Of a DNA stretch of 42,136 bases, positions 9,970 through 15,747 are shown piece after piece. The notes under the pieces were generated by a model. That model saw only the letters and a list, made by a program, of their open reading frames with translations, searched no databases and had not been told where the DNA came from. This DNA is from an uncultured Microcaldota archaeon. Its GTDB lineage: Archaea > Micrarchaeota > Micrarchaeia > CAILAH01. Numbering within the stretch: position 1 is the first letter of the stretch; each line of letters opens with the position of its first letter. Made by a program: the position numbers and the translations under genes. The stretch lies in assembly GCA_903832205.1 (NCBI GenBank), contig CAILAH010000059.1, forward strand, positions 1 through 42,136. Direction: 5' to 3'.

Positions 9970-10680
9970 GTGAGCGACGACATTGAATTCTTAGATGTGG
10001 CACTCCTTAAGAGGATTGACGCGGAAACCACCGTGGAAAGCTTCGGCTCCAGGATAAGCAGCACGTTTTTTGAGGCGGCCAACCTGCTGGGCACACTGAA
10101 GATAAAAGGGCTTATTGACATACATTCCGCAATCGGCAACAGCCCCGTGCTTATCACCGAGAAGGGCAGGATGCTGCTGAAGGATTTGGACGTGAATGCC
10201 GAGGCCGAGCCGAGCAAAATGGACCTGGCGGTGCTGGGAAGCATACGCGGCGGGCTCAAGAACCCGAAGCAGATTGAGGGCACGCTCAACATAAAGAGCA
10301 ACGATATTGCCTATGCAATTTACAAGCTGGCGAAAAGGGGATTCATAGATTACAGGGTGAGAAATGCGGGCGTGGAGCTGATGCTCACGACCCAGGGGTT
10401 CGAGGAAGAGAACCCGACCGTGAAGGAGCACGCGAACCGGGCGCTCGCAAAGATTGCGCTCGCCAAGCCGGAAATGAAGGGGCCGGGTGAAGTGAGGAAC
10501 AGGGCCGCGGAGGAGCTTGCTGCAGAGGATTTCGGCGGCGAGGGGCAGGAGGACGTGCAGGCGGAGGACAGGAACACGTCCAAGGTCCTGTATTATGCTA
10601 ACAGGTATAAATGGCATGCGCTCGGGCTCATTGTAGTCGTTGCTGCGGCCGCCATTTACATCCTATACCTAAGGAAGTGA
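9970..10680 (+). CDS. winged-helix-like protein with C-terminal TM helix
   Basis: two HTH-like segments (NDIAYAIYKLAKRGFIDYRV) and terminal IVVVAAAAIYILYL. Confidence 0.6.
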   Translation: MSDDIEFLDVALLKRIDAETTVESFGSRISSTFFEAANLLGTLKIKGLIDIHSAIGNSPVLITEKGRMLLKDLDVNAEAEPSKMDLAVLGSIRGGLKNPKQIEGTLNIKSNDIAYAIYKLAKRGFIDYRVRNAGVELMLTTQGFEEENPTVKEHANRALAKIALAKPEMKGPGEVRNRAAEELAAEDFGGEGQEDVQAEDRNTSKVLYYANRYKWHALGLIVVVAAAAIYILYLRK

Positions 10681-10684
10681 TGCC

Positions 10685-11296
10685 ATGGATGCGTCAGATG
10701 ACTTGAGGATTTTTACGGATAGGGGGGTTAAATTGCCCAAGTTTGAGGTTGTCCCCATAGGCCAGAGGCCTAAGTTTTTCCCAGCGGAGAGGTATGTGAT
10801 TAAGGCGCTGGGAAAGGGGCTTGTGCACAAGACTGATGTGGGCGCAATCAAGACGAACGTGGAGAGGGAGAGCGTCGAGGTTGAAATGAGGCGGATGAGA
10901 AATAAGCTGGACAGGTTCAAGCTTGACGGGTTTATCATACAGGAGCAGGTGCCAAAAGGGACCGAGGTTATCATTGGTGCAAAGAGGGATGAGCAGTTTG
11001 GTGACGTTGTTCTATTTGGTTTGGGCGGCGTTTATGTTGAATTGTACAAGGATGCCTCGGTGAGGCTTTGCCCAATCTCAACGAATGATGCGCTTGAGAT
11101 GATTGGAGAGACAAAGGCCGCAAAAATATTCGATGGATTCCGCGGGGCGGAGCCCATTGACAAGCTGATGGTTGCGGGGATTATCAAGAAGGTGTGCACA
11201 ATCATGCACTACAACAACATAAAGGAGATTGACTTGAACCCGGTTATACTTTATCCAAAGAGCTATTTTGCAGTGGATGTGAGGGTGATTAGATGA
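10685..11296 (+). CDS. ADP-forming acyl/acetyl-CoA synthetase, beta (ATP-grasp) subunit
   Basis: GLVHKTDVGAIKTNV, GAKRDEQFGDVVLFGLGGVYVEL, EIDLNPVI. Confidence 0.88.
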   Translation: MDASDDLRIFTDRGVKLPKFEVVPIGQRPKFFPAERYVIKALGKGLVHKTDVGAIKTNVERESVEVEMRRMRNKLDRFKLDGFIIQEQVPKGTEVIIGAKRDEQFGDVVLFGLGGVYVELYKDASVRLCPISTNDALEMIGETKAAKIFDGFRGAEPIDKLMVAGIIKKVCTIMHYNNIKEIDLNPVILYPKSYFAVDVRVIR

Positions 11297-12957
11297 AGGG
11301 GAATAAACGCGGAAAGCTCTCATACAAAGTCGCAAAACTCCTTAAATCCCTGCCGGAAGCGAAAGTTACATCCGTCAAATACTTCCCTGAAAACACATTA
11401 TATACGGACATCTATTCGTCATCTTTCAAGACCGCGGACATGCGCGCGGTGCTTGACCCTGACAGCGTGGTTGTGATTGGGGCATCGAGAAATCCCACGA
11501 AGGTCGGGCATGCAATGCTCAAGAATTTGATAACTGGCGGCTACAGCGGGAAATTGTTTGCTGTGAACCCGAACGCCGACAGCATACTTGGCGTGAAATG
11601 CTACAAGAGCATCACCGCCATACCGCAAAAGATTGACTGCGCAATGATTGCGGTCCCCGCTGAGGATGTCAATCAGGTAATGGAGGAGTGCGGAAAGAAA
11701 GGAGTGAAGGGCGCGATTATAATTTCCGGCGGGTTCAAGGAAATCGGCGAGTGGGAACGCGAGAACAAGCTCGCAGAAATAAGCAGGAAGTATGGCATCG
11801 CGGTAATCGGCCCCAACTGCCTCGGCATCGTGAACATGAAGAAGCATATTGACTGCATATTCCTGCCCACCTATAAGATGAAGAGGCCCAACTTCGGGAA
11901 AATCAGCTTCATTACGCAGAGCGGTGCGGTGGGCTCGACCATTCTTGATTTGGTCGGAGAGTCCAACATTGGCGTTTCAAAATTCATTTCATACGGCAAC
12001 GCGGCCGTGCTCGATGAGAGCGACCTGCTGCGCTATTTGCGCGAGGATGAGGACACCGCAGTGATTGTGATTTACATTGAGGGCGTAAAGAACGGCAGGA
12101 TATTTTACGAGGAGCTCAGGAAGACGTGCGCGGTGAAGCCGGTGGTGGTGCTCAAGGCAGGCAAGGGCACGCTCGCGGCGGGCGCTGCCAAGTCGCACAC
12201 CGGGGCGCTTGCGGGCGATTACAAGGTGTTCCAGTCCATGCTCAGGCAGGCCGGCGCGGTTGAGGCGGAAAACCTTCCTGAATTGTTCAACCTCTCAAAA
12301 ATATTCCTGCAGCCCCTGCCAAAAGGGGATAGGATATTCGTGCTCACAAACGGCGGCGGGGACGGAGTGCTCGCCGTTGACGCAATTGAGAAGAACGGCC
12401 TGAGGCTCGCCGAGATAAGCGCGAAGATGAGGGCGAAGCTGAAAAAAGTGCTGCCATCGCACGTGGTTGTCGGGAATCCGTTCGACCTAACGGGTGATGC
12501 CGACAGCAAAAGATATGGCATGGCGCTAAACGAGATAGTGAATGAGGAGGGCGTTGATGCCATCATTGCGATTACGCTTTTCCAGACCGCCGGGCTTGGT
12601 TCCGAAGTGGTGAACACGGTGATTGATGCGGACATCAAGACCGATAAGACCATTGTGTCCGTGGCAACGGGCGGGGATTACACGCGCCTGCTGCTTGGAA
12701 TAATAGAGTCTTCGGGCGTGCCTGCCTACGGCTCGCCGAGCGAAGCGGTGGATTCAATCGCCAAGGCGCTCTGGTACTACAAGAAGCGGGAGAAGAACGT
12801 CGCTGAAAACGAGGCAAAGGACCAGCAGCATCTGTCTGCGGCACTTGGCAAGGCGCTGGAGCGCGGGCCGGAAAAGCAAAATGCGCCTGCTTCTGTGCAG
12901 GCGAATGTGCTGCGCACGGGCGCGAATGCCCTGCCGCCAAAGGCCCGCCATAAGTGA
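11293..12957 (+). CDS. ADP-forming acyl/acetyl-CoA synthetase, alpha subunit
   Basis: VVVIGASRNPTKVGHAMLKNL, GPNCLGIVN, KSHTGALAGD, TNGGGDGVLAVDA; ATGA overlap with beta subunit; alternative start 11440. Confidence 0.9.
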   Translation: MKGNKRGKLSYKVAKLLKSLPEAKVTSVKYFPENTLYTDIYSSSFKTADMRAVLDPDSVVVIGASRNPTKVGHAMLKNLITGGYSGKLFAVNPNADSILGVKCYKSITAIPQKIDCAMIAVPAEDVNQVMEECGKKGVKGAIIISGGFKEIGEWERENKLAEISRKYGIAVIGPNCLGIVNMKKHIDCIFLPTYKMKRPNFGKISFITQSGAVGSTILDLVGESNIGVSKFISYGNAAVLDESDLLRYLREDEDTAVIVIYIEGVKNGRIFYEELRKTCAVKPVVVLKAGKGTLAAGAAKSHTGALAGDYKVFQSMLRQAGAVEAENLPELFNLSKIFLQPLPKGDRIFVLTNGGGDGVLAVDAIEKNGLRLAEISAKMRAKLKKVLPSHVVVGNPFDLTGDADSKRYGMALNEIVNEEGVDAIIAITLFQTAGLGSEVVNTVIDADIKTDKTIVSVATGGDYTRLLLGIIESSGVPAYGSPSEAVDSIAKALWYYKKREKNVAENEAKDQQHLSAALGKALERGPEKQNAPASVQANVLRTGANALPPKARHK

Positions 12958-13886
12958 GCATTATGCTTTTACAACTACAGCTCAGCAGCCTCTTGCTGCT
13001 TTTTCTACTTTACCTAAACATCAAGGTCATACGCAGGTATCTGGCCACTGACAACACCAATTATGTGATACTGGTTGCGGTGCTGCTTTTTGCGTTCTTC
13101 AATTTCTGGCTCACTACCTACAGTGAGATTCTTGGAAAATTCCAGGAGCAGTTCACCATCATCATGAATCTCCTTCCCATAATAATCATCATTGCAATCG
13201 TGTGGCTTGAAGGCAGGAGAAAAAAGGAGGAGCGCGAAAAGCTCAAGACGAGGGAGTTCTTCTCCAAGTATGTTTCAGAGAAGATTGTGAATTCATTGTT
13301 GAAGGAAAAGAAGTTGGAGCTGGGCGGCAAGAAGGTGCCGGTGACTGCATTGTTCACTGATGTGCGCGGGTTCACGGCCATGTCCGAAAAGCTTGACCCG
13401 AAGCAGGTGGTCGATGTGCTGAACGGGCATTTCGATATCATTAACGAGGAGATGTTCAGGGAAGACGGCACGGTGCTCAAGTACATCGGCGATTCCGCAA
13501 TGGCGGTGTTCAATGCGCCAGTGCTGCAGGAGGACCATGCGGTGAGGGCGGTGCGCGCGTGCGTCAATACGCAAAAGAGGATGCTTGCATATTCGGCCGA
13601 AGCTAAGATAAAATTCGGCGTTGATTTCACAATCGGGATCGGGGTCAACACGGGCGAGGCGGTCGTAGGAAACATCGGCTCCCACAGGTATATGGATTAC
13701 ACCATCATCGGCGATGCGGTTAATACGGCCGCAAGGCTGAACGGGCAGGCAAAGGCGGGTGAGGTCGTGATAAGCGACAGCACCCATGAGCTTGTGAAGG
13801 ATAAGTTCAGGTTCTCCGAGCCCGAAGCGGTGATGGTGAAGGGGAAGGCGCAGCCCGTAAAGATTTACAGGGTGTTATACGAGTGA
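12954..13886 (+). CDS. membrane-anchored class III adenylate/guanylate cyclase
   Basis: FTDVRGFT, LKYIGDSAMAVF, YTIIGDAVNTAARL; two N-terminal TM segments; GTGA overlap with upstream stop (alternative ATG 12963). Confidence 0.92.
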   Translation: MSIMLLQLQLSSLLLLFLLYLNIKVIRRYLATDNTNYVILVAVLLFAFFNFWLTTYSEILGKFQEQFTIIMNLLPIIIIIAIVWLEGRRKKEEREKLKTREFFSKYVSEKIVNSLLKEKKLELGGKKVPVTALFTDVRGFTAMSEKLDPKQVVDVLNGHFDIINEEMFREDGTVLKYIGDSAMAVFNAPVLQEDHAVRAVRACVNTQKRMLAYSAEAKIKFGVDFTIGIGVNTGEAVVGNIGSHRYMDYTIIGDAVNTAARLNGQAKAGEVVISDSTHELVKDKFRFSEPEAVMVKGKAQPVKIYRVLYE

Positions 13887-14056
13887 AGAGTTGGACATTT
13901 AGAGAAATAAGAAAATGAAGTGGGAAGAAGAAAAAGTGAAGATGGAAATAGCAGATGCGCAATGAAAAATGTAAAGCAACAAGGCAAAGATGGAAATGGC
14001 TGAATGTGAAGCAAGATGAAAGTGGCTGAAGTGCAATAAAAGAAGGTGAAGATGAG

Positions 14057-14596
14057 ATGATAACGGAATACCTATACGCATTCCTGATGTCACAGGACGG
14101 TATGCGCAGGGTGCTTGAGAAGAGGGGATGGAAAATCCCGCTGGTAATGCTAATCGTGGCGCTGCTTGCAGTATGCCTTCCCGCAAGGCAGCCCTTCTCA
14201 TTCTCGGATTATGCCTATAATATCATGCTGTTGGGATGGAGTTCCATACTCATAAACGCCGTTGTTGCGGGATTGGCCACCGTACTTTTCCACGCAAAGT
14301 TTGCAGGCAATTTCTTCGGCCTCCTCAGGATCACTGCCGCCGCATTCATAATCAACACGCTGCTGCTCCTTCTGCTTTATGCAATAGGGATTCCGTTTGG
14401 CGCAAGCGGCACTTTGCTTGCGGCTGCAGCAACGCTCATCTCAACGTATTATTTTGCGGTGCTGCTCGCAATTGCCGCGGGATGCAACATTAATGCAGAA
14501 TCGCAAAATGAGAAAATAAAAAAGTATGCAGTGGAAATCACCGCACTGCTTTTGTGGTATGCGTTCACATTCTACATACTTGCGCTGACCATTTAA
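14057..14596 (+). CDS. Yip1-like multi-pass membrane protein
   Basis: about five hydrophobic helices; family assignment by overall pattern only. Confidence 0.5.
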   Translation: MITEYLYAFLMSQDGMRRVLEKRGWKIPLVMLIVALLAVCLPARQPFSFSDYAYNIMLLGWSSILINAVVAGLATVLFHAKFAGNFFGLLRITAAAFIINTLLLLLLYAIGIPFGASGTLLAAAATLISTYYFAVLLAIAAGCNINAESQNEKIKKYAVEITALLLWYAFTFYILALTI

Positions 14597-14601
14597 TCGT
14601 T

Positions 14602-15747
14602 CTAATTTTTCCTGCTTGCGGCATAGAGCGCCCCAACAACCAGGAGGATTGCTGCCGCAGTGCCGCATCCCGATGGCTTGGGCGCTACATCATCAGTTAG
14701 GCCCTGTGAGATGGGCTCTGAAATCTGGTTGATGGTTGCCACGGCATAAAGGCTCAGCCCGCCAGTGCTCACCTCGTATATGTAATAGTCGCCGCTTTCG
14801 GTTACCGTTGGCGTGAGCACTTCCGTGCCGCCGTCTTCCGTATAGCGCAGGATTACCACATCGCCATTCACCATGCTCTTGGGCACCTTGAAGCGCAGGA
14901 CTGCCGATTTGATATTCGTCCCGTCCTTCAGGTTGTCCAGGTTTATCTCGATTGAGTCAAGGGTTGTGAAATTTGTATTTTTGTCATACTTCAGCTGCAC
15001 CGCCTGCCTGAACTTGTCGCGAATCTCCTGCGTGAGGTCCACGCGCTGGGCATTCACGTTTGAATCAAGCTCAATTGAGTTGAGGTCCGCAACAATCTCA
15101 ATGCCTATGCCGTTGGCAAGCTGGCCTGAAACGGAAATCACTCCGTCCTGGAGGGTCCTTGTGCCGTCCTTCTCGCCAATAACCGTCCCCTCAATTGTAA
15201 CATTCAGGTTCCTGCCGTTGCTTTGGACAGAAATGTTGCGCTCGAGCGGCGGGCAGAAATCGAACTTTCTTGAGAGCTCGCCAAGCGCGAACGTGCATCC
15301 CGCATCATCGCACCCGCCGTAGATTTTTGCGCCTTTCACGGTGCAGGAGACCGTGTTGGCATCGGTGTTTGTGCAGCTGCACGGCGTTTTCGCCATGTTT
15401 GTGCAGATGAGCTGCACCAGCGCCGCGCTGGGCTGTATCATTCCCACGTCCTTATCTATTCCAAGGAAGGATGCGATGCAGGTCTTGTCATCGCATTTCA
15501 CAAGCAGGTTCTCGTTGAAATCCACTTTGCACGCCTTGCCGCCGATGTCTTCGTAGCAGGAGCAGGTGGCGTGCAGCCTGTTCTCGCACACCTTCTCCAT
15601 CAACGCAGTGTTGTCTGCGGTGGCGCGGGGGATGCAGGCAGGCGCCTCTACTGTGCCATCTGCAGAAACAAGGGCATCCTGTGCGAAAAGGATTGCGGGT
15701 AAAAATGCCAAAAGCAATGCAACGAGAAATATTTGTTTGATGCGCAT
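14602..15747 (-). CDS. secreted/membrane-anchored surface protein
   Basis: signal peptide, Cys-rich N-terminal half, C-terminal CGTAAAILLVVGALYAASRKN anchor. Confidence 0.65.
   Translation of the reverse strand: MRIKQIFLVALLLAFLPAILFAQDALVSADGTVEAPACIPRATADNTALMEKVCENRLHATCSCYEDIGGKACKVDFNENLLVKCDDKTCIASFLGIDKDVGMIQPSAALVQLICTNMAKTPCSCTNTDANTVSCTVKGAKIYGGCDDAGCTFALGELSRKFDFCPPLERNISVQSNGRNLNVTIEGTVIGEKDGTRTLQDGVISVSGQLANGIGIEIVADLNSIELDSNVNAQRVDLTQEIRDKFRQAVQLKYDKNTNFTTLDSIEINLDNLKDGTNIKSAVLRFKVPKSMVNGDVVILRYTEDGGTEVLTPTVTESGDYYIYEVSTGGLSLYAVATINQISEPISQGLTDDVAPKPSGCGTAAAILLVVGALYAASRKN

Follow-up and report, generated by a model that had tools for sequence, protein, structure and literature searches.

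A predicted membrane signalling unit of a class III adenylyl cyclase and a five-helix protein in small archaea, joined in one family to an acyl-CoA synthetase operon

Which proteins make and which read cAMP in archaea has yet to be settled. The nucleotide has been measured in several archaeal species, very few of the predicted archaeal adenylyl cyclases belong to class III, and one class IV candidate, Saci_0718 of Sulfolobus, proved to act as a phosphohydrolase (PMC8646023). In DPANN, a class IV cyclase was reported as new (PMC10266531). The rarity of class III cyclases in archaea, stated in the initial annotation of the DNA analyzed here, agrees with PMC8646023 and with our result of 18 out of 301 genomes of the phylum.

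The best solved matches to the archaeal cyclase in a Foldseek search were Synechocystis Cya2 (2w01) and Pseudomonas aeruginosa CyaB (3r5g). CyaB, compared by its catalytic fold, is also a class III adenylyl cyclase, and the fold matches with a TMt of 0.92; to our knowledge, CyaB has no separate five-TM partner gene. Cya2 and the bacterial CHASE2-type cyclases (PDB 2w01, 6fht) share with the archaeal protein the catalytic domain (Foldseek E about 1e-21, 36% identity) and the cyclase-transducing element (CTE). In the bacterial CHASE2 cyclases, one transmembrane (TM) helix is followed by CHASE2, by further TM helices that immediately precede the catalytic domain (usually three, as estimated by hydropathy, and three also in the archaeal protein), and by the catalytic domain itself. 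In Cya2, the single substitution E488K switches the substrate from GTP to ATP (PMC5995499). Mycobacterium Rv1625c/Cya (PDB 7yzk) is likewise a membrane-anchored class III cyclase, with an anchor that is regarded as a receptor (PMC4821796, PMC12505454); however, that anchor consists of six helices in one chain, whereas the locus described here encodes three helices in the cyclase and a second, five-TM protein. The CHASE2 cyclases of Campylobacterota cluster with a phosphodiesterase and other genes (PMC9239204), which is a precedent for conserved cyclase neighborhoods.

The window is the whole stretch of 42,136 nucleotides that was analyzed, a contig of an uncultured Microcaldota archaeon. It holds a unit of five genes on the + strand, encoding a winged-helix protein, the beta and alpha subunits of an ADP-forming acyl-CoA synthetase (ACD), the cyclase, and a five-TM (5TM) protein. 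The winged-helix protein, which has a TM tail at its C-terminus, is gene 1 of the ACD operon (9970-10680; PF24409 wHTH, E 1e-6) and ends 4 nt before the start of the ATP-grasp beta subunit (10685-11296; PF13549 ATP-grasp_5, E 5e-45). The alpha subunit (11293-12957; PF13607, PF13380, TIGR02717) comprises the CoA-binding part and the phospho-His loop SHTGALAG, matching Succ_CoA_lig with an E of 4e-47 and the acetate-CoA ligase alpha model TIGR02717 with an E of 1e-145, which is under the cut-off of that model. The class III (IIIb-type) cyclase, with three TM helices, a stalk, the CTE, and the catalytic domain, follows at 12954-13886 (PF00211, E 6e-30). Beta and alpha overlap by ATGA (11293-11296), alpha and cyclase by GTGA (12954-12957). 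Thus, the beta, alpha, and cyclase genes that had been annotated at 10685-13886 with 4-nt overlaps were confirmed by open reading frames, domain matches, and overlaps alike. The GTG start of the cyclase is uncertain, as an in-frame ATG three codons on (12963) suits the family alignment about equally. After a spacer at 13887-14056 (+), the 5TM gene occupies 14057-14596; a PGF-pre-PGF surface protein gene (14602-15747), convergent to it, was read as an ordinary neighbor. As two other genera show the same gene order and key residues, the arrangement is not due to chance. Contamination was considered and rejected, as the contig carries aIF2 beta and gamma, Cbf5, and a TFE-like protein. The host is probably a DPANN archaeon, judging by the size of its genome, its archaeal translation genes, and the relatives of the module in Woesearchaeota.

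The cyclase passed the Guanylate_cyc model PF00211 with 104.6 bits against a cut-off of 21.9. The six class III key residues that the initial annotation had reported are all present, namely D136 and D180 for the metals, K176 and T250 for the base, and N257 and R261 for the transition state, and they are invariant in an alignment of 16 cyclases. In class IIIb adenylyl cyclases, a Lys and a Thr form the base-specifying pair. Both are invariant here, and ATP is the substrate predicted from them. K176 aligns with residue 488 of Cya2, the site of E488K, so that the window cyclase has a Lys at the base-specifying site where Cya2 has a Glu. This archaeal protein is thus a genuine adenylyl cyclase of class III that is probably active.

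The AlphaFold model of the cyclase (pLDDT 91) begins with three long helices (residues 2-32, 36-60, and 63-104), the third of which continues into the stalk; a short helix of the CTE and then the catalytic fold come next. The anchor is therefore a three-helix bundle and not the N-terminal TM hairpin that had been annotated. Positive charges assign the TM1-TM2 loop, like the catalytic domain, to the inner side of the membrane. The window cyclase lacks the CHASE2 sensor and the first TM helix of the Cya2/CHASE2 type, and a separate 5TM protein is encoded instead; no CHASE2 domain (PF05226) was found in it, whereas the six bacterial relatives tested and the archaeal genome G165 have one. Given the bacterial layout, the archaeal form looks like a CHASE2 cyclase in which the 5TM protein stands in for the extracellular sensor. 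The anchor profile gave no sequence match to the bacterial CHASE2 cyclases, and a loss of CHASE2 during descent is suggested only by the architecture.

In a maximum-likelihood tree calculated from 69 catalytic domains, the 15 partner-bearing cyclases and the cyclase of genome G030 were separated from the rest by a branch supported at 99/99 and recovered in all 200 bootstrap trees, and the archaeal GAF and CHASE2 cyclases grouped among bacteria. By this phylogeny, the cyclases of the unit are placed in one archaeal clade, apart from the bacterial CHASE2-type cyclases. The closest sequences outside the clade were bacterial among the matches listed in one scan; the bacterial members of the tree were the best matches of this one scan, so a bacterial sister may be unsampled.

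The initial annotation had named the ACD as the coupled neighbor of the cyclase; the conserved partner is instead the 5TM protein, which was absent from it. A 5TM profile (A2) was built from ten proteins and searched across the phylum (301 genomes). It gave 12 strong matches, each of them immediately 3' of a same-strand gene with a PF00211 domain, and a weak thirteenth (G024, E 7e-4, with a stop), which was discounted. Five matches that had not entered the profile all adjoin a cyclase; two of them are among these 12 (G159, G160), and three, with the cyclase just upstream, come from another phylum (G117, G461, G118), reached via the Woesearchaeota records L066 and L086, with G117 and G461 being near-copies. 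In this other group, the match in G533 stands at a contig end and was left out of the adjacency count, and weaker matches (E above 1e-5) were Yip1-like or broken. Most pairs share 4 nt between the stop of the cyclase and the start of the 5TM gene; exceptionally, the window has a purine-rich spacer of 170 nt containing imperfect repeats in place of this overlap.

The 5TM protein had no match in Pfam or NCBIfam. It has five TM helices, as in the Yip1 domain family (PF04893), and the profiles are weakly linked (hhalign probability of 80% against Yip1-like archaeal proteins); nevertheless, the window protein has no PF04893 match, none was above the cut-off in the window's genome (G000), and the best family member reached an E of 0.077. 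A structure prediction from two sequences was poor (pLDDT 49). The 5TM profile did not match the downstream genes examined at bacterial cyclase loci, and no description of the cyclase and 5TM pair was found in the accessible parts of the open literature on DPANN, Woesearchaeota, and Micrarchaeota cyclases.

Four anchor residues are shared among the partner-bearing cyclases: Y20 and W52 in 15 of 15, P75 and Y56 in 14 of 15 each. G030 is the sole short three-helix cyclase without the partner, and the profile search reported no 5TM match in its genome. This cyclase carries Y20F, W52G, Y56I, and P75F with every catalytic residue intact, whereas its sisters keep the four positions except for one Y56F. 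Its anchor has, however, diverged overall (26-27% identity to the sisters against 40% between sisters) and the case is a single event, so that the G030 anchor is suggestive of a contact with the partner. Across 14 pairs, the divergence of the partner correlated more strongly with that of the TM anchor, at a rho of 0.72, than with that of the catalytic domain, at 0.56, and part of the former value may come from a similar mode of evolution in membrane proteins.

We therefore favor, with a probability of about two in three, the reading that the cyclase and the 5TM protein constitute a two-gene membrane signalling unit, which in the window's family is joined to the ACD operon. The cyclase would be a class IIIb adenylyl cyclase that forms homodimers and is anchored to the membrane by its three helices, and the 5TM protein would bind this anchor, serving as a sensor or regulatory subunit. 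As such, it would relay a membrane or external cue via the stalk helix and the CTE to the catalytic dimer and thereby change the cAMP output, with regulation directed from the membrane inward. Such a compact, conserved cyclase with a dedicated membrane partner is a concrete candidate for a cAMP source in tiny-genome archaea, and the 5TM protein is a candidate for how this cAMP is controlled. The locus is of more interest for this partner than for the ACD link. We hold more tentatively, at somewhat below even odds, that this is an undescribed two-protein cAMP receptor-synthase of a 3TM cyclase and an obligate 5TM sensor, working through a non-CRP effector in at least two phyla of small archaea and joined in one family to ATP-yielding acyl-CoA metabolism.

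As in archaeal ACDs generally, the alpha and beta subunits are separate, both are present, and they have the expected domains; unlike in those, the window set is fronted by the tail-anchored winged-helix gene and followed, in the window's family, by the cyclase unit. An ACD alpha match was found in 106 of 117 relatives. Among 27 ACD loci of other families, 22 had winged helix, beta, and alpha, and in one more the winged helix stood with an alpha that looked fused. None of the 27 had a cyclase or 5TM gene in the flanks (about 1.5 kb), and no ACD lay beside the cyclases of other families. The winged helix-beta-alpha operon is thus class-wide, and the cyclase stands behind it in one family only, in three genera (G000, G002, G003). 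In G003, of another genus of the family, the five-gene order is complete, with a 4-nt overlap of cyclase and 5TM gene; in G002, of the third genus, a beta fragment, alpha, cyclase, and 5TM gene run from the contig end; G001 (64% complete) shows neither gene. The alpha of G004 is cut at a contig end, so G004 is no counterexample to the link. The annotated coupling of cyclase and ACD, and the conservation of the three-gene order proposed as a check on it, therefore held within the family and failed beyond it; the link is real here, yet a local arrangement of two independent modules, the ACD operon and the cyclase with its 5TM protein. Joined to the class-wide operon, the unit is probably co-transcribed with the genes that turn acyl-CoA into ATP. 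That the cyclase reports the fermentative energy state via the ACD, with cAMP tracking acyl-CoA-driven ATP synthesis, would be compatible with a two-gene unit and would suit both the order kept in three genera and the 4-nt overlaps. We consider it rather doubtful, as other families keep their cyclases elsewhere, the 27 loci lack one, and the cyclase has no soluble domain for sensing a metabolite. The shared apparent operon may tie the expression of the cyclase, not necessarily its activity, to acyl-CoA metabolism.

The search for a cNMP-binding (CRP/CAP) domain, also proposed in the initial annotation, found no effector of this type, with no PF00027 match in G000 or in the two family members with the cyclase (G002, G003). 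G000 is 82% complete, but the three family members concur on this absence. Eight further genomes gave just a sub-threshold match in G118, and one of 117 relatives (G011) had a CRP-like protein above the cut-off. Universal stress protein (Usp) was not found in the 82% complete G000. Under the two-gene signalling unit, cAMP would act through an effector that is neither CRP nor Usp. The absence of a CRP-type effector leaves that role open to the 5TM protein itself, which could be a cAMP-responsive membrane protein, or else a maintenance factor that assembles or stabilizes the cyclase; the adjacency data (12 of 12 and 5 of 5) would fit equally, but its short loops and the absence of a recognizable nucleotide-binding region in the protein make this unlikely in our view. 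The missing CRP and Usp, together with the bacterial sequences nearest outside the clade, could also mean that the cyclase is a relic or a recent bacterial acquisition with no signalling role. This is highly improbable for a single archaeal clade spanning two phyla in which the catalytic residues are fully conserved and the partner is kept, and with the unit retained in two further genera of the family.

Upstream, the tail-anchored winged-helix protein (window 9970-10680; L038-L064) precedes beta-alpha class-wide, and its TM tail was present in all 19 homologues examined. It is a candidate membrane-bound ACD regulator, and we know of no such regulator described.

The partner was missing beside the long cyclases with GAF domains (the second copy of G049, G038, and L086), beside the CHASE2 cyclase of G165, and in G060. 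The G165 cyclase (L192:1963-3936) has a bacterial-type CHASE2 sensor and is apparently a separate acquisition. Upstream of the GAF cyclases of G049 and G038 stand two similar genes for proteins of some 200 aa (L027:7996-8601 and L028:4999-5616, respectively); the product of the one in L027 resembles a winged-helix protein and may be a regulator linked to the cyclase. At the 5TM position of G030, close to or overlapping the cyclase end, lies an HD-domain protein that faintly resembles cyclic-nucleotide phosphodiesterases (L032:9151-9921). Finally, two f5 genomes have a predicted surface protein directly upstream of the cyclase (L024:9598-11031, L025:3599-5137), with a C-terminal part in common with the PGF-pre-PGF protein of the window (14602-15747).
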